From contig OX638372.1 in NCBI GenBank assembly GCA_951812925.1, positions 39,058,245-39,122,244 on the forward strand: a stretch of 64,000 nt of DNA, read 5' to 3'. The stretch is from Calliopum simillimum. Lineage: Eukaryota > Arthropoda > Insecta > Diptera > Lauxaniidae. The notes beneath the pieces were generated by a model. That model did not search any database and had not been told where the DNA came from. It saw only the letters and a program-made list of their open reading frames with translations. Both the position numbers and the translations under genes were made by a program. This document shows, in pieces, positions 7,653 to 57,300 of the stretch (position 1 is the first letter of the stretch; each line of letters starts with the position of its first letter).

Positions 7653-7778
7653 TAATATGAAAATTTGGAAAAATTCGGCTTTCGGGGTTTTATTCATACT
7701 AGTAATCAAAATCATACAAATCCCGAAATCGTAGCTGATCGAAATATTCCATATAAAATAACAAAAACTAACATATCT

Positions 7779-8664
7779 CACGGCCCGCTTGAAAAAAATT
7801 AACTGAAAGGTTCGAGGACGATGGAGTTTTTTGTCGGGTTCTTTTCAGGACATCATCCGAAGACAATCCTAACAAGAATTCAAATCGTAACACGTGCCGA
7901 TTTTGAAAACCGACAGTTCTTGCTATTTTGAAACGAATACTTTCAAATGGTTGCACTAAATACCGTTTATGTGTGCATATATCGACTTCGGCTACACCCC
8001 TATGTAAAAGCTCATTCAATTCTATGAATATTTGCCCAAGAAACTATACCTCTGCGTTCAACTTTAGTTCGGCGCATTTTCGATCGAAAATTTTACCTTT
8101 CATTTAATATTTTTTTTTTTTATTTTCATACTAAATTTTTAAAATTCTTATAGAGACAAAAGTAATGTCATAATATGATTTGGCTGGTATTCCCTCAGTA
8201 ATCAATTAGATTGGGTTCTGTTTGCATAAAAAGTTCACTTGATGGTGTTGAATTGATGATATTTATTCCAACAAATTATGTCGGTTAAATAATTTTATAT
8301 TTTTACATGGATTTTTGGTATATTGTTCTGTAAAATTAAAAAAAGCGGCAAATTTATTTCATAAAATGCGCCGAACAAAAGTTGAACGCAGAGGTATGGT
8401 TTCTTGGACAAATATTCATAAAATGAAATGAGCTTTCACATTGGAGTGTAGCCGAGGTCAATATATACTCAAATAAACGGTATTTAGTGCAAACATTTTA
8501 AAACATTCATTTAAAAATAGCAAAAACTGTCCGTTTTCAAAAACGGCATGTGTTACGATTTGAATTCTTGTCAGGATTGTCTTCGAATGATGTTCTGAAA
8601 AGAACCCAACAAAAAACTCCGTCGTCCTCGAACCTTTCAGTTAAATTTTTTCAAGTGGGCCGTG
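7779..8664. repeat. Foldback element with 300-bp inverted arms
   Basis: The left arm (7779-8080) and the right arm (8362-8664) are reverse complements with scattered mismatches, separated by about 280 bp. Both arms carry the same reading frame, minus strand on the left and plus strand on the right, including FEFLLGLSSDDVLKRT on the left and FEFLSGLSSNDVLKRT on the right. I do not recognise the peptide. The spacer at about 8150-8232 resembles the left half of the small TIR element at 23488-23744. No clear target duplication was found. Confidence 0.85.
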
Positions 8665-11600
8665 ATCTCACACAAATTTCAGCCGATTTCTGTTTTCAAC
8701 AGTACATTTCTTATGGTTTTAAGGTATATCGTCTCTCGTACTAAAAAAAAAAAACTTTTTGACTAAAATTGAAAAATTTTCCAATTTTCATTCTGAAATT
8801 CGCAAGAAAATTACAAACCGATTTTGAATTTATTGGCCTTGAAAGTTGACTTATCTATCACGCTTTAACTTAAAGTAGCACACTTGAAAAAATTTTAAGT
8901 TGTGGAAGCAAAAAAAAATACCTTAAAATCATGCCTTTGCAAAAAATTAAATACTTGCTGTTTTACCCGGCGTTGCTCGGGTTTTGATAAAAAGCAAGAA
9001 AGCACTAAAAAAACTAATAACGAAAAATTTTTATTAAAATAATGTGGAACAAACAGACGCTCCAATATATTTATTTTATTTCTTTCCATAAAGTTATCAT
9101 ATCTAACATATCGGTAAAAGATCAAATATATCGAAAAATATTAAAATACACCGATTTCTCCGGTGAAAGTCCGAAAGTATCAAAAATATCGGTAAAACTC
9201 CAAAAATATCAAAAAAGTTTTAATTGATTTTCGAAGTATGTCCCGACCAACAGTCCCGATTGCTCAAGTATTGCTGTATAATTTTATGAACTAGAACCCA
9301 GAGCTTCCAGAAATTTAGTTTCTCAAGGTTCTCAGAAACTAGATTTGAGTTAACCTGATAAGGTTTGAGATCTTAAAACCGCTAGAGAGCCAGCTTAAAT
9401 CGTCATACACAAGTTTTTGCAGTTCCGCTTCAGGTTGTTGTAAGCATATTTGTCGATTGGGTATATTCCTACCTGAAGTTTAATGACACATTTAGCAGTC
9501 CGCCTTAATTATTTTGCCCTCGGCCCAAAAAAATCTGCCGCTCCTTTAGTTTGAAATCCATATAGTATATACACCATGTTATTATCAATTCGGATAGCCC
9601 CATTCAACTTTTCTCATCTTAGTTCAGTTTCAAACATTTTGATGAAGCTAAACTTTTGTGTCATATTTCCTCTAGGTACATATTTGCAACAAACAGCCTT
9701 CTTTCGATTTGGACAACAACTCGATCTGATAGGTTCTTCAGTCATTCGAAAAATTACAGTTAAATTACATACAAATATGATAATGAAGAGGCTAAGGTGA
9801 AATCGTGAGATGTGGATGGAAAGTTTGGTAGTATAGTCTTAATACCATGCTTCTAAAACTTTTCAGAATTTGTCATTCAAAAGGTGTTCATTTGCAGTTA
9901 AGTAAATTTGTTGCAATGTTACAAACGAACCATTGTGCATTATACAATGAAATAAAAAAATTATTAATAATTCCATAAAAAAAGTGAAAGATGTGGAAGC
10001 TTCTATATTAAAGTATACACGTATCATTGAGAATTTATTTGACATTATTTTTGCTTATTTTGTTCAAAGTATGTGCGCAATACTCAAAATCAATCAACTT
10101 ATCTTCTTCTTTTGAATTTGCTACGTGCCTAACACCATATCTTTACACTGGTCGCACTTATCAAACCCTTTTACTTTGTTAACATCATACACTTGTACAG
10201 CTGGTGACTTTTAGCTTAATGTTTTCACGCCCCGGGTCATTGTTTGTACTTTTCCATTTCCATTTTCACTGTAACCCAGACTACTGCGTACGATATGTGC
10301 CCTCTTAAGTTTTATGTGAATTCCTGAGTGGATTATGATGTCTTTTATGGTATTTTTGAAGTGTTCGGCTTCAAATGGCCACAAATTTTGATAGAACGCA
10401 GATCGAATTCTTTACTGTCTGAACATATTGAAAGTTGACTGAATGAATGAATTGATGCGTGTATTGTATAGAAAAGTTGAATGAATTGAATAGCTATGCA
10501 ATCATACTTAAGATTCTAATCATATATTCGAAACTAATTTGAATGCTATTAATAATGCACTCATTATGTAGTTTTCTGGATATCGTATTTTATTGGATGT
10601 TTTGTATCAGCTACTTTGCATAAAATTGAAATAAAAAGAAAATGTATAATAAATAAAATATAAAGAATTTTACAAATGTTAACATAAAAGAAAAACGATG
10701 TCACACGCTTCAACACTTTTAGCACTTTAAAAGTTTTGATAAATTTTTTTATTCTAAACTACGAGATATTGTGGATGTTGAAAAAAATGGCATTAACGGT
10801 TATGCTAAATGTTAATGGTGTTTTAAATGTATGTCAAATAATTTTTTATATAATCGTATATTTTGGCTATATATTTATATTATTATTCATATTTAAAAAG
10901 TTATACTTTTTGTGAAATTTACGCGCTGCGCTGCCTGCCGGAGCATTGACCGTTCAAAAAGTTTCCTCAGTGTTGCTGTTTATTGTCCTCACGGAAGAAA
11001 GTTTTGACAATTATTCACATTAGTTTATTCATTTCGTCTGTTATAGTAGGTCAAAGGTTAAAGACATTTATGCCTACCAAATCAAAATGCAATTAAGTAT
11101 TATAGCGACGCATTATTTTGAAGTTACAACTTAAAGTTTAAATTTTATAATTGAGTACGTTGCCTTTTGTTGAAATTGAGATTTTAATTGATTTTGGATG
11201 TTCGGGAATAAAATATTTATTGATTTTTTTGTGTTTACATGTATTTTTTGATTTTAAATTTTACTTATCATTAAAGATTTAACTATTTCAATTCGTTCGC
11301 TATATTGTTTACTGACCATAAAATATGCATTTAAAGTCGTTTGTCTCTTTTATTATCTCATAAAATGAACCTCTCGATTTTTATAATTTTTTTAAGACTA
11401 AAATCATTTTATTACCTCCTTTATACATAGCTATATGTATAGCTGTCAACTGTGGAAATAACTCATTTTTCTATTGATAACTTAGGGAACATTTTCATAT
11501 TCGTTATAAATTATTGTCTAACAATAGCAATTAATAAATCTTTTGCCGAACAAGTTCTTAAATTAAGTTCTTTTGTCATTGAAATATAATATTTTCTTAC

Positions 11601-12492: not shown

Positions 12493-13711
12493 ACCTATGT
12501 CCCGAAATGAGGAAAATTTAACTAGGATTCCAAAAAAAAAAAAATATACAGAAAGATATCGAGCCCTAACCGCAATAGTAGCGTATGCGCCAAAAAGCAA
12601 ATTTTACAGGAGAGAGTTTTTTTCATTTTTTTTCGAACAGGCATGGCGGATTTTGTTAAAACGTTAAATGTAGTCTATATTAGACCTCATATAAATAATA
12701 GCCGCGTTTTTAAATTGATTTTGTGCATATTTCAATCATTTATGGCGCATACGACATTTTCGCAGTCACTCTTGGCGAAGATTGAATTTGAATTGAACGA
12801 TTGAAATTGCACCAACCCACAAAAACGGTCAGATTGACTGTAATATTGTTAATTTACAGTACTATTTAGTATTAAAAACTTACAAAATATCACACACACA
12901 CGTCGTTTGAACTTGGTTTTACTCCGATGTAATCCCACTCCAGGTCTTTTTTTGGAAAGTTTTTCATAGAGGTCCAAATATACAGAAATTTTTTTTTTTT
13001 TTTAAATCGGTCACCGAGCTAATCGATTTTCCGAGTCGAATTCAGGTTACCAAATGGTCTTTACATTGTTTCTGCATTAAAGAAAAAAGTTTGACAAAAA
13101 CTAACTAAAAACTGGGTGTGCAGTTAATTTTCTGTTTATTTGTAGATTCAAAAATATTGTTTTTAAAAGATTTAACTGATCGCGTTAACGAGATATTGTA
13201 TTTTTAACAACTTTTTTTTTAAATTTTTTTGTTAAAAAAAATGAACTTTCGCGTTTTTTTAGAAAATTAGCAACGGACGAAAACAAAAAAATCATTTTCA
13301 ATTTAAATTTTGATGTTGAATCCGAATCTGGTTTTAGAATTGATATATCTAAAATGGTTTGAGAGAAATCCTAGCCTAAAGACTAATTTTCCATCCATTT
13401 TGTGAAAAGTTAAAATAACATTTTTTTTATTCTTTTGAGGCTATATAGTAGAACAAGGAAATCTTAAGCCATTAAACATTAAAAAACACCTTGAAGCCCT
13501 ATTATTTTACTTCAAATCCCAGCTTAAATTATATCGATATATTTTTTCTTCTTCGAATTATTCTAACCTGAAACGGTGAAAAAAGGAAAAATCCACGTTT
13601 TTTTGATATTTCAGCTTACGATATTTCGAAGACAAAAAAAGCTATCGATATAATTCAAACTGATTTTCAAAGTAAAAGACTGGGGCTTCAAGCTTCATTT
13701 TCAAGACCAAG
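12493..13711. other. Unassigned AT-rich DNA with runs of T and A
   Basis: Homopolymer-rich sequence without genes. A short inverted pair (GTATGCGCCA near 12585, TGGCGCATAC near 12742) may be the ends of another small degenerate element, but internal support is lacking. Confidence 0.35.
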
Positions 13712-13903
13712 TTGGTCTTGGTCTTGGTCTTGGTCTTGGTCTTGGTCTTGGTCTTGGTCTTGGTCTTGGTCTTGGTCTTGGTCTTGGTCTTGGTCTTGGT
13801 CTTGGTCTTGGTCTTGGTCTTGGTCTTGGTCTTGGTCTTGGTCTTGGTCTTGGTCTTGGTCTTGGTCTTGGTCTTGGTCTTGTTCTTGGTCTTGGTCTTG
13901 GTT
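13712..13903. repeat. Hexamer microsatellite (TTGGTC)n, about 32 copies
   Basis: Perfect TTGGTC tandem repeat of about 192 bp with a single G-to-T change near 13883. Open frames cross it on both strands (Val-Leu, Asp-Gln and Lys-Thr dipeptide repeats); these follow from the 6-bp period and are not evidence of a gene. Confidence 0.97.
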
Positions 13904-14261
13904 TGTACCATGTATGCAGCTAAATTGCGATACTGAATTGTTCGAGTAAAATCTCGAAATTTCATAAATGTATATGCATTCAACCACAAGCTGTATTCGC
14001 ATAACATCAGCTGTTCTCGTTGTTTCTTTTCATCACATTCACGAAATAAGCTTTGCATGATTTAAGGCTTTTATTACATTGGGTTTTCGACACAATACTT
14101 TTATTGTACTTGATTTTATGAATGTGTTAAAACTTTTGTTGGTGAAATATTTGAAGGACTGGTGGACTGAGGCATATTATGATACATAGCTACATTGGAT
14201 TAAAATAAATAATTTCTCTAATAATCCAGATACTCTAAAACTTATCTATCTTAATTCTATA

Positions 14262-32807: not shown

Positions 32808-33312
32808 ATATACATATTTACATACAATATTGTCATAATATTTCCGTACAATCTCAGGTTATTAAACCAAAATTTCAATTAAGTCAAAAACCATAAGAAT
32901 CAAATAAGATTTTCGAAAATAACCAGATGGCAATCCTAAAAACTTATGATAAATTTTTGAAAAGTTTATTTAAGTGTCTTTTAAGACACTTTTAAGACAC
33001 TTAAATAAATGGTTTAAAAAAAGCTGGCAAAAAAAAAAATCGGGTCGCAACACCGAAAGTTTTGTACAATTTAAAAAAAGTTTATCTCAGCGTTTCTGAA
33101 ACCAAAAATTTCAATCGTATCAAAAAAAGTAAGAAATAGCCAATCCTAAAAATTTATGCTGAATTTTTGAAAAGTATATTAAAGTGTTAGACTAAATTTA
33201 AATTATACTAATTTTATGAACTTTAGTCAATGTTTTTTGCAAGAATCGAAAATTCCATGCATTTTCCAACTTAGAATATTATGACAATTAGGAGAAGAGA
33301 AAAAACTACTGA

Positions 33313-33377
33313 ACATGGCTATGGTGACATATGTTTCGGTTACCGCCACGTAACCATCATCAGACCAATTTATGTTT
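33313..33377 (-). ncRNA. Hammerhead-ribozyme-like motif, copy 1
   Basis: On the minus strand: stem I strand AACAU...UGGU, core CUGAUGA, one extra U, stem II GGUUAC/GUAACC closed by GUGGCG, core GAAA, a very short stem III (AC/GU around AUAU), then GUC at the expected cleavage point (between 33327 and 33326). The returning stem I strand is ACCA...AUGUU. All catalytic core bases are present. The single unpaired U before stem II deviates from the textbook form. The palindrome ACAUAUGU would allow the dimeric stem III seen in Penelope-type hammerheads. Confidence 0.65.
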
Positions 33378-33842
33378 TATTTAATTTATTTTAAATTAAA
33401 TGAAATAACAATTGAAAAATTTTTGAACTTTTTGTCTGAGGCCGGGATCGATCTATGAACCTTTCGAAATCAATCTCTCTACATAGCGCATTTATCAACG
33501 GACTGCGCTGTGTGCCCTCGGAAAATTGGTAGCTTAAGTGCCTGTATGCATGTAGCGTGGTTTCATTCTCTATACTCCTTTGTCATCATTCATGTTGTGT
33601 TTGTTTGGTAAGGCTCAGCCATTGGCTGAGAATCAATACCGTTATATTATATGACTGACAAGTGTTGCCAGTTGCACATATTTGGCGTGTTCCCCATGAT
33701 TACTTAAAATGGTTTATGTTGACTATATGAAAATTATACTAATTTTATGAACTTTAGTCAATGTTTTTTGCAAGAATCGAAAATTCCATGCATTTTCCAA
33801 CTTAGAATATTATGACAATTAGGAGAAGAGAAAAAACTACTG

Positions 33843-33907
33843 AACATGGCTATGGTGACATATGTTTCGGTTACCGCCACGTAACCATCATCAGACCAAT
33901 TTATGTT
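33843..33907 (-). ncRNA. Hammerhead-ribozyme-like motif, copy 2
   Basis: Identical to copy 1 and in the same orientation, 530 bp away. Predicted cleavage lies between 33857 and 33856. A minus-strand transcript across both copies would, if both cleave, release a 530-nt unit. Confidence 0.65.
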
Positions 33908-34304
33908 TTATTTAATTTATTTTAAATTAAATGAAAAAACAATTGAAAAATTTTTGAACTTTTTGTCTGAGGCCGGGATCGATCTATGAACCTTTCGAAA
34001 TCAATCTCTCTACATAGCGCATTTATCAACGGACTGCGCTGTGTGCCCTCGGAAAATTGGTAGCTTAAGTGCCTGTATGCATGTAGCGTGGTTTCATTCT
34101 CTATACTCCTTTGTCATCATTCACGCTACATGCATACAGGCACTTAAGCTACCAATTTTCCGAGGGCACACAGCGCAGTCCGTTGATAAATGCGCTATGT
34201 AGAGAGATTGATTTCGAAAGGTTCATAGATCGATCCCGGCCTCAGACAAAAAGTTCAAAAATTTTTCAATTGTTATTTCATTTAATTTAAAATAAATTAA
34301 ATAA

Positions 34305-34369
34305 AACATAAATTGGTCTGATGATGGTTACGTGGCGGTAACCGAAACATATGTCACCATAGCCATGTT
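34305..34369 (+). ncRNA. Hammerhead-ribozyme-like motif, copy 3 (inverted)
   Basis: Same sequence on the plus strand, with predicted cleavage after C 34355. It faces copy 2 across a large palindrome, so a long transcript could form a hairpin that masks both ribozymes. Confidence 0.65.
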
Positions 34370-34789
34370 CAGTAGTTTTTTCTCTTCTCCTAATTGTCAT
34401 AATATTCTAAGTTGGAAAATGCATGGAATTTTCGATTCTTGCAAAAAACATTGACTAAAGTTCATAAAATTAGTATAATTTTCATATAGTCAACATAAAC
34501 CATTTTAACTAAATTTAAATTTTTTAAATAAATGGATTAAGCAAAACTATCAAAAAAAACTAGGTGGACAGTTATTAAACGGAGAGTGACAAAATGTTAA
34601 AAAAAACGCACGGAGAATGACTGAACGGAGAATAACGAAATGTTGCAAATACAGTAATATCACGATGAAAATCGCAATTATTTTTATAAAAATTGAAACT
34701 GGTGGATAGCTCCTCTAATTGTTTATTGATTTAATTATATAAAGATAAAATAATATTTTTAGTAATATAAAAAAGACTTACGCGGAGAA

Positions 34790-50097: not shown

Positions 50098-50300
50098 TTC
50101 GAATCCGCCATTTTGTTTTTTAATAATCTAATACCAGATTCGGAATCAGTGACCCCAAAAACCCCCGAGTAAATTTTTTTTGTCTGATCTGATTGAATAT
50201 TTAAGCAAATCGTGCGCCATTTTGAATCCGCCATCTTCTTTTTTAAAAATCTAACATCAAATTCGTAATCAGCGACCTCAAAAACCCCCAGGTAAAAAAT
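50098..50300. repeat. Diverged tandem duplication, period about 122 bp
   Basis: GAATCCGCCATTTTGTTTTT...GAATCAGTGACCCCAAAAACCCCC is followed by GAATCCGCCATCTTCTTTTT...TAATCAGCGACCTCAAAAACCCCC (each quoted in parts). The copies differ at several positions. It is internal to the 1229-bp element. Confidence 0.85.
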
Positions 50301-50410
50301 TTCGCCTCGAAACTTTAATGATTTCGACTTTTGGCCAGCTTTTAGTGATTTTGAACCAGTGTGAATCGGGTCAAAATGATTATAAAAATTTTATCCCTGT
50401 TTTCTCATTT

Positions 50411-53400
50411 ATTAATTCATTTATTCATTTATTCATTTATTCATTTATTGATTTATTGATTTATTCATTTATTCATTTATTCATTTATTCATTTATTCAT
50501 TTATTCATTTATTCATTTATTCATTTATTCATTTATTCATTTATTCATTTATTCATTTATTCATTTATTCATTTATTCATTTATTCATTTATTCATTTAT
50601 TCATTTATTCATTTATTCATTTATTCATTTATTCATTTATTCATTTATTCATTTATTCATTTATTCATTTCTTCATTTATTCATTTATTCATTTATTCAT
50701 TTATTCATTTATTCATTTATTCATTTATTCATTTATTCATTTATTCATTTATTCATTTATTCATTTATTCATTTATTCATTTATTCATTTATTCATTTAT
50801 TCATTTATTCATTTATTCATTTATTCATTTATTCATTTATTCATTTATTCATTTATTCATTTATTCATTTATTCATTTATTCATTTATTCATTTATTCAT
50901 TTATTCATTTATTCATTTATTCATTTATTCATTTATTCATTTATTCATTTATTCATTTATTCATTTATTCATTTATTCATTTATTCATTTATTCATTTAT
51001 TCATTTATTCATTTATTCATTTATTCATTTATTCATTTATTCATTTATTCATTTATTCATTTATTCATTTATTCATTTATTCATTTATTCATTTATTCAT
51101 TTATTCATTTATTCATTTATTCATTTATTCATTTATTCATTTATTCATTTATTCATTTATTCATTTATTCATTTATTCATTTATTCATTTATTTATTTAT
51201 TCATTTATTCATTTATTCATTTATTCATTTATTCATTTATTCATTTATTCATTTATTCATTTATTCATTTATTCATTTATTCATTTATTCATTTATTCAT
51301 TTATTCATTTATTCATTTATTCATTTATTCATTTATTCATTTATTCATTTATTCATTTATTCATTTATTCATTTATTCATTTATTCATTTATTCATTTAT
51401 TCATTTATTCATTTATTCATTTATTCATTTATTCATTTATTCATTTATTCCTTTATTCATTTATTCATTTATTCATTTATTCATTTATTCATTTATTCAT
51501 TTATTCATTTATTCATTTATTCATTTATTCATTTATTCATTTATTCATTTATTCATTTATTCATTTATTCATTTATTCATTTATTCATTTATTCATTTAT
51601 TCATTTATTCATTTATTCATTTATTCATTTATTCATTTATTCATTTATTCATTTATTCATTTATTCATTTATTCATTTATTCATTTATTCATTTATTCAT
51701 TTATTCATTTATTCATTTATTCATTTATTCATTTATTCATTTATTCATTTATTCATTTATTCATTTATTCATTTATTCATTTATTCATTTATTCATTTAT
51801 TCATTTATTCATTTATTCATTTATTCATTTATTCATTTATTCATTTATTCATTTATTCATTTATTCATTTATTCATTTATTCATTTATACATTTATTCAT
51901 TTATTCATTTATTCATTTATTCATTTATTCATTTATTCATTTATTCATTTATTCATTTATTCATTTATTCATTTATTCATTTATTCATTTATTCATTTAT
52001 TCATTTATTCATTTATTCATTTATTCATTTATTCATTTATTCATTTATTCATTTATTCATTTATTCATTTATTCATTTATTCATTTATTCATTTATTCAT
52101 TTATTCATTTATTCATTTATTCATTTATTCATTTATTCATTTATTCATTTATTCATTTATTCATTTATTCATTTATTCATTTATTCATTTATTCATTTAT
52201 TCATTTATTCATTTATTCATTTATTCATTTATTCATTTATTCATTTATTCATTTATTCATTTATTCATTTATTCATTTATTCATTTATTCATTTATTCAT
52301 TTATTCATTTATTCATTTATTCATTTATTCATTTATTCATTTATTCATTTATTCATTTATTCATTTATTCATTTATTCATTTATTCATTTATTCATTTAT
52401 TCATTTATTCATTTATTCATTTATTCATTTATTCATTTATTCATTTATTCATTTATTCATTTATTCATTTATTCATTTATTCATTTATTCATTTATTCAT
52501 TTATTCATTTATTCATTTATTCATTTATTCATTTATTCATTTATTCATTTATTCATTTATTCATTTATTCATTTATTCATTTATTCATTTATTCATTTAT
52601 TCATTTATTCATTTATTCATTTATTCATTTATTCATTTATTCATTTATTCATTTATTCATTTATTCATTTATTCATTTATTCATTTATTGATTTATTGAT
52701 TTATTCATTTATTGATTTATTCATTTGTTCATTTATTCATTTATTCATTTATTCATTTATTCATTTATTCATTTATTCATTTATTCATTTATTCATCTAT
52801 TCATTTATTCATTTATTCATTTATTCATTTATTCATTTGTTCATTTATTCATTTATTCATTTATTCATTTATTCATTTATTCATTTATTCATTTATTCAT
52901 TTATTCATTTATTCATTTATTCATTTATTCATTTATTCATTTATTCATTTATTCATTTATTCATTTATTCATTTATTCATTTATTCATTTATTCATTTAT
53001 TCATTTATTCATTTATTCATTTATTCATTTATTCATTTATTCATTTATTCATTTATTCATTTATTCATTTATTCATTTATTCATTTATTCATTTATTCAT
53101 TTATTCATTTATTCATTTATTCATTTATTCATTTATTCATTTATTCATTTATTCATTTATTCATTTATTCATTTATTCATTTATTCATTTATTCATTTAT
53201 TCATTTATTCATTTATTCATTTATTCATTCATTCATTTATTCATTTATTCATTTATTCATTTATTCATTTATTCATTTATTCATTTATTCATTTATTCAT
53301 TTATTCATTTATTCATTTATTCATTTATTCATTTATTCATTTATTCATTTATTCATTTATTCATTTATTCATTTATTCATTTATTCATTTATTCATTTAT

Positions 53401-54330
53401 TCATTTATTCATTTATTCATTTATTCATTTATTCATTTATTCATTTATTCATTTATTCATTTATTCATTTATTCATTTACTCATTTACTCATTTATTCAT
53501 TTATTCATTTATTCATTTATTCATTTATTCATTTATTCATTTATTCATTTATTCATTTATTCATTTATTCATTTATTCATTTATTCATTTATTCATTTAT
53601 TCATTTATTCATTTATTCATTTATTCATTTATTCATTTCTTCATTTATTCATTTATTCATTTATTCATTTATTCATTTATTCATTTATTCATTTATTCAT
53701 TTATTCATTTATTCATTTATTCATTTATTCATTTATTCATTTATTCATTTATTCATTTATTCATTTATTCATTTATTCATTATTCATTTATTCATTTATT
53801 CATTTATTCATTTATTCATTTATTCATTTATTCATTTATTCATTTATTCATTTATTCATTTTTTCATTTATTCATTTATTCATTTATTCATTTATTCATT
53901 TATTCATTTATTCATTTATTCATTTATTCATTTATTCATTTATTCATTTATTCATTTATTCATTTATTCATTTATTCATTTATTCATTTATTCATTTATT
54001 CATTTATTCATTTATTCATTTATTCATTTATTCATTTATTCATTTATTCATTTATTCATTTATTCATTTATTCATTTATTCATTTATTCATTTATTCATT
54101 TATTCATTTATTCATTTATTCATTTATTCATTTATTCATTTATTCATTTATTCATTTATTCATTTATTCATTTATTCATTTATTCATTTATTCATTTATT
54201 CATTTATTCATTTATTCATTTATTCATTTATTCATTTATTCATTTATTCATTTATTCATTTATTCATTTATTCATTTATTCATTTATTCATTTATTCATT
54301 TATTCATTTATTCATTTATTCATTTATTCA
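50411..54330. repeat. 8-bp satellite (ATTCATTT)n, about 490 copies
   Basis: A nearly homogeneous array of about 3.9 kb. Rare variants are scattered: ATTGATTT at 50448-50463 and again at 52688-52713, GTTCATTT near 52728 and 52838, and single changes near 50670, 51194, 51451, 51889 and 53640. A 1-bp deletion at about 53781 shifts the phase. Because 8 bp is not a multiple of 3, all three plus frames read the same IHLFIYSF octapeptide. These frames are artefacts. The array starts about 45 bp after the end of the 1229-bp TIR element. Confidence 0.97.
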
Positions 54331-57300
54331 GTTATTTTTTATTCATAAATTTAGTGATTTTGTTAGTACATACATATATTAAATTATTGACTTATTTCTT
54401 GGTTGGCTTATAACTTTTTGAATTTATTAATTTTTTGTATAAAAATTTTAATTTGTTTATGTATCAAGTTTGTAATTTATTGAATAATTAACAAATTTCT
54501 TAATTTATTGATTCGTTTATTTAATTTTTTATTTATTCATTTATTTACACATTTAATTGACTACATCCGTAACAAAAGAAAACTATTTCTGTTTTGTTTT
54601 ATAAAATGCTATTCCATTAGATGTTTTTAGTGATCTAGCCCATATGGATTTTCTTTTCCTGTTATTATTTTCAAATCAATCACTTGAATGTCCAACATTA
54701 ATAAGCCATAAAATCCCTTCCGTTTTATACCTTTATTGTTCTCAATTAGTTTTCTCATAGAATCATAATGTACTTAAGTACGTGCATACCTACCTGTATC
54801 TTAAAATAATCCAAAATAACATTTTGTGTAATTTATCTTTTTTTTTGTATTAATGCATCATCAGTGGAGTCATTCATCAATCTTTATTTTTAGTCAAAGT
54901 TTGAGACAGGTTTCTTTTTTTTGCTTCGTCTTGCTTCTAAATGCAGTATCCAATTATTTCTTTTAACGTCTTAGCTTTACCGCCACCATGGATTGCCACC
55001 GGGTTTCCTCTAATTTCAGATATATTTTACACTTTATTTTAATCATATCAATCATTTCGTTGTTTTTGTTTTTTTACATTATGATTACAATAATATGTAT
55101 TTTTTTTTTTTTTTTTTTGTTTTCTTTACAAGTTCAAGTTTAATTTTGTTTGTGAAAATACATGTAATAAATTATATTTAGCTTATTGTAAGTTTTGTTT
55201 AGGCTTTGTTTTACTTAGCTGTTTTTTATTAAGTATTTTGAGTGAAATATTTTAATCTACAATAAATTTCTTGTATTGTATTGTTTTAGTATTTACTTGT
55301 TAGTGTTTTTGTTGTCTAGCTAGGGTACCCTTGAAATTTTATTATTATTTAAAATAGACTTTAAGACTGCATGATGTCATGTTGTGGATTAGCATTTATA
55401 AAGCTAAAGTTTTATTTGTTTTGATATAACTTTAACGAAAATTAACAAATAAAAAAAATTTTTATTACATTTTGCGTACAATGAACTTTGACATGTTGTT
55501 TCAACACAAAAGATAATTTAAGTCAAACACAAGATATGAAGTTTACAAAAATTTAAAAGCCTTAAATGCATAAAGTCATAATTTCGAAATACAAAAGTTC
55601 GGTGCACTGTTTTCAAAAAAAAAAAAACATATAACGCCTATGACTTCTTAATGCTTTTGAACGCAATGAATATCTTCAAAGCAATAGTTTCATCCAAAAA
55701 TTGATACCTTCGACCTCATTTAAAAAAAAAAAAAAAAAAAATTTTGAGGACCTAAACTTTATTGTTTCCACGTTTTTTCGACAATATCAGATGAATATTA
55801 ATATTCGAATGGATTACAGCAATGAAAATACGAAAACTAATATATGGATACGAGAATAAAAGAGTAATGATAACACTGGAACAGCGTTTTGTGCTTTTCT
55901 CTAAATCCTGACTTCAGATTCAGTATGACATTGTTTTTAGTGCATAGGTAAATATTAATTTCAAGAATCGAAGAAATAACACTCGAAAAACCAACCTACC
56001 AAATTTTTTGGTTTTTTTACCCATGCATTTTGCCTTGTTTTTGTAATGTTGGTGTTTTTTTACTCAAATGCATAGAACAGCTCACAACCCAATACCACTT
56101 GACACGTGATTTGCTGGTAGCTAGTTAATGTAAATCATTATCTGTAGGTACAAAAAAAAAAAATTTGATGAATATAATATTCATGTTTTTTTTGATAAAA
56201 TTTTAATCATGTCGAATACATTTTATGCTTCCTGTGTGGGCGTTATCAATAACAATCATTTTGGCATATAATCTCATTGTTTCTGAAGGAGAATACAATA
56301 ATATAATTTATAGATCTTTATTACAAAGTGCGCATTGTATATTGGCATAATAAGCTATTAATTGTAATGCAAAAAATCCATCATCATATCATTTCCATTT
56401 AAGAAACCTATACGCATTGTATTTCGATCCAATTCCTTTTGTTTATTTTTCTTAATTCTTAATCAATTTTTTGTTTCTTTTCCATAGATTTATTCGTTCA
56501 ATTAATTTCCAAGGCAAACCAACATTTTCATATTCTACTTATACATCTGACATCTTTCTACATACCATGTATTCCGTATATTTTGTTCTCATCGTAAACA
56601 GAGCTCTAATCTTCTACTTTATTGTTTGGCTCTTTATCAGGTCGGTCGGTCTTTCCCATCGAATGCCATGTCATCTCTTATTTTTTTGCAAACCAAGTTG
56701 CTATTTCGCTTCTTCATTGAGTTATGTGCAAAAATTATGGGGGATTTTGTACGCTTTTTAAGCGTTTGATTGATGTTGCTCTCTGTCGTTTTATTTTTCA
56801 TTTTCATTTTTATTGCAGTCTGTCTTGATATTGATATTTCTGCTTTAGCATTTTGCGGTCTATCTATACATAAGTGCAAAGTCTGGATTAGTCTGATTGT
56901 CTAGTTGTTTATTGTTTATATATATGCTTATTATATATATGCTTGATTCGTCGATAGTCATGTAGTTTTTTTGCAATATTTGTCGAGTATATGATAATGT
57001 TATAGACACATATGTCTAATTATATTGCATGTATTATTTTCCACCTTTTCGTCAAATAATTGCTGGCTTTAGTTGGTATCAATTGATTATACTTTTTGTT
57101 GTTATTATTTTGGTTGTTATTTCATTCCTGGCTCAATTTTAAGTGGCACAACGTGTTTGTGCTAATTTTATTGCCATATTTTATTTATTAAGGAAAATTG
57201 TATTATCTTTTAAAAAAAAATTTGAGGGTTGACCGGTAATCAATCTTTAAAAGCTGTAATTCGAATAACCCATAAAGTGCAAAGGTACCACGGTTTTTTA

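Follow-up and report, generated by a model that had tools for sequence, protein, structure and literature searches.

What moves a repeated, ribozyme-bearing element that encodes no protein? The question is raised by a block at positions 33205-34507 of a 64,000-nucleotide (nt) stretch of the genome of the fly Calliopum simillimum (Diptera, Lauxaniidae; contig OX638372.1), hereafter called the window, which an earlier note made from the letters alone had described as a Penelope- or retrozyme-like element with three hammerhead-like motifs. Insects are among the named hosts of metazoan retrozymes (PMC7229834), and a 2020 review describes their repeats as lacking any motif that would reveal an autonomous mover and names Penelope-like elements (PLEs) as likely candidates (PMC7761336). 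The window element belongs to a known kind of element, and it is probable that it represents a metazoan, non-long terminal repeat (non-LTR) retrozyme mobilised by PLE machinery, in which one repeated and probably circular RNA is reverse-transcribed from both strands of the target. The main new observation behind this reading is that insertions of the family pair two different, fixed ends.

Results

The insertion comprises 1303 bp (33205-34507) and lies between two perfect copies of a 14-bp target-site duplication, ACTAAATTTAAATT, at 33191-33204 and 34508-34521, exactly where the earlier note had placed it. It is made of a 531-nt unit present as 1.73 direct copies and 0.73 of an inverted copy. 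The direct copies are 531 bp apart and alike over 300 nt at 99%, the inverted third copy forms arms of 391 nt at 99% identity, and a single base differs among the copies over the compared parts. Two head-to-tail motifs on the minus strand had been recognized correctly, whereas their spacing had been given as 530 bp. Read in ribozyme sense, the A arm (919 nt, 1.73 units) occupies 33205-34123 on the minus strand and its outer end at 33205, site A, lies 121 nt past the ribozyme cut, while the B arm, an inverted partial unit of 386 nt, occupies 34122-34507 on the plus strand and reaches site B at 34507, 152 nt beyond the cut. The B end thus exceeds the A end by a tail of 31 nt (34477-34507, plus strand), and mapping of the arms places their head-to-head junction at 34122-34123, with a 2-nt overlap. 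The view that no protein is encoded also stands, the longest stretch without a stop being 70 codons; the block holds no transposase open reading frame (ORF) and no reverse transcriptase (RT) or GIY-YIG ORF, and it is therefore not an autonomous PLE. A protein search with six ORFs of the window matched no Pfam family.

The 690-Mb host assembly was searched for the unit, and scoring 40 of 1359 candidate places gave at least 292 unit matches. The sample analysed here consists of the window and 38 groupable loci among the matches listed, that is, the best-matching copies with divergent ones left out, and its 39 loci contain 161 unit copies. No ORF-bearing form was noticed in these loci, which were sampled by likeness to an ORF-less element and whose interiors were not scanned for ORFs.

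Each insertion end was assigned a position in the unit, numbered from the predicted ribozyme cut, with A ends defined as those at 105-135 and B ends as those at 140-165. Exact duplications of 11-16 bp flank 28 of 30 head-to-head insertions (13 or 14 bp in 22 of the 28), and in all 28 an A end (range 107-122, mode 121) is paired with a B end (range 148-154, mode 151), a result with a probability of 4e-9 if each end picked A or B independently with equal odds. L255 adds a 29th A/B insertion with a 14-bp duplication, and one end of L256 is lost next to N. The 28 insertions look independent because their arm lengths vary, from 44 to 4290 nt, and all their duplications differ; the A arm is not consistently the longer one (12/28). 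No statement of this one-A-one-B rule was found in the open-licence literature searched. The 30 nt between A and B match the tail of PLEs, a segment of 30-40 bp delimited by two RT start sites (PMC11167929).

GC content is 14% in the target duplications, and T is the final primer base in 20/28 cases at A and 17/28 at B. Overlaps of at least 2 nt are present at 17 of 26 arm junctions of the family, against 18.5% expected, and the inner arm ends fall at 80 and 365 of the unit in L239, at 95 and 442 in L245, and 33 nt apart in the window. Ten copies are single-ended, eight of them ending at B (L246, L252, L254 twice, L260, L262, L263, and L268); the two in L254 may be one duplicated event, and L246 alone among the ten has a clear duplication.

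Variants within insertions bear on the template. Where three or more units of a locus cover a position, 23 substitutions are shared by all the units, 4 by some of them, and 104 are confined to a single unit. Among variants fixed in one arm (at least two units), 12 of 14 locus-site pairs also occurred in the other arm, and 8 of these 12 were absent from the other 38 loci. Variants shared between arms and by all units indicate that both arms usually derive from one template read several times, and a circular template is probably the simplest account of this uniformity within insertions, as judged from the sequences.

A complete hammerhead core in each of the three units had been proposed, and our results agree. 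CTGATGATGGTTACGTGGCGGTAACCGAAACATATGTC occurs at 33326-33363 and 33857-33894 on the minus strand and at 34318-34355 on the plus strand, and its search pattern had no match in 100 shuffles. The full motifs span 33310-33376 (minus; predicted cut between 33326 and 33325), 33841-33907 (minus; between 33857 and 33856), and 34305-34371 (plus; between 34355 and 34356). Core order and the presence of stems I, II, and III at all three sites identify a type I hammerhead, with a stem I of UGGU/ACCA plus AACAU/AUGUU and a core of CUGAUGA, an extra U, stem II GGUUAC/GUAACC with loop GUGGCG, then GAAAC AUAU GUC. Loop II makes a 4-bp contact, UGGC with GCCA. Stem III is short (AC/GU with an AUAU loop); its sequence, ACAUAUGU, is an 8-nt palindrome suited to a dimer and found at three other places in the window, and a double hammerhead drawn from the tandem copies reaches -31.6 against a dimer optimum of -34.2 kcal/mol. 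Double self-cleavage of a minus-strand transcript is predicted to release the 531-nt monomer 33326-33856 (34.8% GC). A loose hammerhead descriptor matched these three sites only, and 300 shuffled windows gave 0.097 matches per window; since 11 of the shuffle matches had as many pairs as the real sites, a single loosely defined site is not striking. The strict descriptor found the three sites, against 1 match in 3000 shuffles.

The hammerhead was identical to that of the window in 132 of the 147 family copies that cover it. Counts of minor alleles were 5/1929 for the core, 27/8038 for the remaining hammerhead positions and 435/61796 for positions outside it. They were not taken as evidence of strong purifying selection acting on the ribozyme, as the copies are young and a homopolymer length difference (rotated positions 354/355) contributes to the last of these figures. 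More distant relatives are informative about structure. A 70% sister copy at L243:5235-5417 (minus strand) lacks the extra U and has a different stem II that still pairs (GUCUUU/AAAGAC instead of GGUUAC/GUAACC) and a compensatory stem I (UAGU/ACUA for UGGU/ACCA), while retaining loop II, stem III, and UAGCC; Rfam matches it best to Hammerhead_3, with a score (22.7 bits) that falls short of the gathering threshold. The hammerhead structure thus appears, in this one sister copy, to have been maintained through compensatory changes. Against such conservation, the relatives L234 and L286 have a decayed core, L234:4842-5053 (minus strand) being a 79% relic with a broken core (TTGAAGA) that ends near site A. 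A genome search for sister copies returned no candidates even though the query came from the same genome, perhaps because its words were skipped as common.

The earlier note had recommended a check with the Rfam hammerhead models, and this gave no support: nothing reached gathering score in the window, and no hammerhead was found in 33150-34560 even at E 10, an outcome that the note had listed among its possible refutations. This silence says little, because Rfam also misses well-formed viral hammerheads with the extra U. A search of IMG/VR for the extra-U core gave 88 stretches with 97 sites, of which 67 have at least five stem II and four stem I pairs, compared with 0 of 118 sites on prokaryote genome contigs (among the matches listed) and, among viral sites whose extra nucleotide is an A or a C, 2 of 18. 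No Rfam family reached gathering score in seven viral loci, six of which hold well-formed extra-U sites, and a relaxed search of one of the seven gave RAGATH-1-hammerhead at 20.2 and 19 bits, below gathering. Loop II of 52 distinct well-formed viral sites base-pairs, as it does in the window, with the nucleotides immediately 3' of stem I; the contact run averages 4.27 bp against 2.98 with shuffled partners (maximum of 1000 shuffles, 3.48). A pseudoknot of this kind is reported in about 40% of hammerheads (PMC3088659). Some viral contigs carry two or three extra-U hammerheads, and in L063 they lie between small ORFs.

A model, R1, was built from 50 of the viral extra-U sites. Because a window-derived pattern selected its training sites, which also had to form stems I and II, only the loop II contact and the inner pairs of stem III count as independent features. 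R1 finds exactly the three hammerhead sites in the window, at 36.3 bits, whereas pattern matches in 80 of 118 prokaryote loci, which serve as controls, score at most 31.7 bits. It gave 24.4 bits at the PLE locus L271, only 15.1-18.1 bits at L272, L276, L277, L278, and L279, where the scores fall within the range of the control matches, and no match at the PLE loci L281-L283 or at the sister copy L243. A scan of viral contigs found no match to the window element's own stem II. A hammerhead arising by chance was rejected on the pattern, descriptor and model tests together with the control matches, and the evidence from the element's own genome for a real hammerhead is stronger than that from the viruses and the model.

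PLEs are present in the host genome, with at least 51 GIY-YIG matches (150 of 209 candidates scored) and both RT and GIY-YIG domains in L271, L272, and L273. Among the 16 of the 51 matches examined, a hammerhead core lies nearby in 9 and none was detected by the descriptor in 7. The unpaired U before stem II had been called the one flaw of the window motif, a judgement that does not hold in this genome, where eight of the nine PLE-adjacent cores carry an extra T and one an extra G (5/6 and 1/6 by sequence group). The extra G was observed in L281, at about 498, before a 6-bp stem II (GTCAAC/GTTGAC). The start codon of an Anolis PLE lies where stem II begins, after C3 and G8 (PMC11167929), and the A-U-G there would contain the same extra U. 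For the host PLE copies compared, the distance from the predicted hammerhead cut to the end is about 107, 114-128 or 137 nt. A typical Penelope insert consists of two direct pseudo-LTRs (pLTRs) and one inverted, with a short duplication and an optional tail of 31 bp that sits at one of the inverted pLTRs, as in Pen2a_Av (PMC3846280). The description of the block as a non-autonomous, retrozyme-like element with PLE affinity is therefore borne out by its ORF-less Penelope layout, the PLEs of the genome and the shared extra U.

Other Features of the Window

Two motifs in 34172-34236 (plus strand), AGCGCAGTCCG at 34172 and GATCGATCC at 34228, may be remnants of RNA polymerase III boxes; they were picked out by eye, and the likeness is weak. 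ARAGORN found no tRNA and no tRNA model was among the Rfam matches. Such motifs are clearer by eye in L243, which together with L286:475-621 (plus strand) may represent a sister family, perhaps of short interspersed elements (SINEs), in which a canonical-core hammerhead follows a tRNA-like head containing visually identified A and B box motifs. MicroRNA matches at 34051-34161 were below gathering and correspond to the head-to-head junction acting as a hairpin. If transcription read through the block, pairing of the two arms could produce a hairpin of about 390 bp, which might be a source of small RNAs.

Elsewhere, 368-2419, 13572-14061, and 50255-54413 consist of long low-complexity tandem repeats with long open frames in several frames. 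An inverted repeat of 303 nt at 90% identity (7778-8080 and 8363-8665) may be another mobile element.

Discussion

The two fixed ends, their pairing, the duplications, the shared variants and the ribozyme structure are read directly from the sequence; from these we infer catalysis, circularity and a PLE source of the enzyme. In the proposed mechanism, transcripts of tandem units would be cut at the hammerheads into 531-nt monomers that could close into circles. A PLE protein would make two nicks in an AT-rich target, one per strand and usually offset by 13-14 nt. Reverse transcription would then start from the two target 3' ends, from one of them at RNA site B and from the other at site A, which lies 30 nt closer to the ribozyme cut. 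Each of the two complementary DNAs (cDNAs) would be extended over as many as about eight rounds of one shared repeated template. The two would then meet head to head, in many cases with 1-3 nt of microhomology at the joint, and filling of the overhangs would create the target duplication. Purified PLE protein is known to cut and extend both strands with a preference for AT-rich ATT (PMC11167929). A more specific proposal is that two PLE RTs share one circular RNA with mutually exclusive start sites 30 nt apart, which would yield one A and one B end with arms of the same sequence, make the tail a mark of coordinated initiation on two strands, and make retrozymes passengers of PLEs; we consider this proposal to stand about evenly between acceptance and rejection.

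Several observations weigh against PLE mobilisation of a circular retrozyme RNA. The search for a partner Penelope RT, suggested in the earlier note, succeeded in finding PLEs with RT and GIY-YIG domains, whereas none sharing the sequence of the unit was found in the 16 of 51 GIY-YIG loci examined, where matches of the unit are short AT-rich stretches or a sister copy. The Anolis PLE in vitro shows no difference in start site between strands and works without a ribozyme (PMC11167929); the A/B rule perhaps differs from the in vitro report since both enzymes share one RNA in vivo. Of the ten single-ended copies, L238 and L267 have their end at A or close to it (at 135 in L267) rather than at B. 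The arms of L253 differ at both of its informative sites, the only two failures of the 14, and in each of L239 and L242 a variant is carried by two of five units, a pattern for which neither a single circle nor a later private mutation offers a simple explanation. A count over six sites gave 152/206 homogeneous, with arms the same in 59 cases and different in 41; two of these six sites are homopolymer indel columns that shift with the alignment, and the later counts reported above use substitutions only. A homogeneous linear multimer transcript also predicts the same identity within arrays as a circle does. Finally, folding of the segments, another suggestion of the earlier note, gave -9.9 for the drawn 67-nt hammerhead against an optimum of -14.7 that retains stems I and II, and in 74- and 86-nt contexts the hammerhead is not the minimum-energy fold and the folding energy is unremarkable (z of -1.5 and -1.8). 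Given the more stable alternative fold in these contexts, self-cleavage of the predicted ribozyme is likely to be slow or assisted; the ribozyme of the Anolis PLE required protein (PMC11167929).

Other origins of the paired ends and inverted arms deserve consideration. It is unlikely that the insertions represent a degenerate PLE without ORF, in which the pLTRs are copied from a linear, PLE-derived multimer RNA with the ribozyme as a passenger and no circle. The extra-U hammerheads common to PLEs would fit such an origin, as would the ability of the Anolis PLE to dispense with ribozyme cleavage in vitro (PMC11167929), but arrays of up to eight units, mostly uniform within each insertion, point to a monomeric template at some step, and the unit has no sequence match to the PLEs examined. 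We find it quite unlikely, too, that a cDNA primed at a single end snapped back on itself to generate the inverted arm. Such self-priming has been proposed for the inverted pLTRs of Penelope (PMC3846280), and self-copying would naturally place identical variants in both arms; unequal arm lengths do not hold as an argument against it. However, it predicts a second outer end anywhere in the unit, and the partner site was present in 28/28 insertions; the tight turn expected from it is absent in many loci, where the inner ends lie hundreds of nt apart (L239, L245), and the arms of L253 differ.

A fold-back DNA transposon or a satellite block with a hammerhead-like sequence by chance would account for the inverted arms, the duplication and the silence of Rfam. 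We regard it as extremely improbable, as the ends, differing by 31 nt, do not match as terminal inverted repeats (a DNA transposon with such repeats was rejected on this inequality), no transposase ORF is present in the block, stems I and II in L243 show compensatory changes, and the R1 and descriptor tests argue against chance.

Under the preferred reading of a retrozyme carried by PLE machinery, the A and B ends are a mark of the mobilising enzyme that can be read from any assembly, and the one-A-one-B rule turns the PLE tail into a mechanistic observable. The shared variants provide genomic evidence for a monomeric, probably circular, template that was copied several times. If true, the element would show how such protein-free parasites are moved.

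Comparison With Known Elements

The hammerhead of chrysanthemum chlorotic mottle viroid (CChMVd) resembles that of the window in having one extra core nucleotide. In CChMVd this nucleotide is an A; the window element differs from the viroid in its extra U, its type I motif and its base-paired loop II contact. Plant LTR retrozymes are similarly non-autonomous, with a monomer bounded by hammerheads, and differ in having type III ribozymes, LTRs with a primer-binding site and a polypurine tract, and 4-bp duplications (PMC4918200); the type I core order and the 14-bp duplication of the window element place it outside that group.

Penelope/Poseidon-like elements share with the window element two direct copies and one inverted copy and a 31-nt tail at one end (PMC3846280), as well as a variable duplication, AT-rich sites, a hammerhead 107-152 nt before the ends and an extra nucleotide before stem II. 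The window element differs from them in the lack of an RT/GIY-YIG ORF and in a unit unrelated to the PLEs examined. The metazoan non-LTR retrozymes are alike in their type I hammerhead, low GC, lack of ORF, many copies, tandem units from dimers upward and duplications longer than 4 bp (PMC7229834), and the same features were found here in a unit of 34.8% GC, non-coding and in tandem, with at least 292 matches and duplications of 11-16 bp. The unit of 531 nt is longer than the approximately 150-450 bp of metazoan retrozymes, whose circles measure 170-400 nt (PMC7229834), and the inverted second arm, the fixed A and B ends and the extra U are likewise features in which the window element departs from the retrozymes described in that source.
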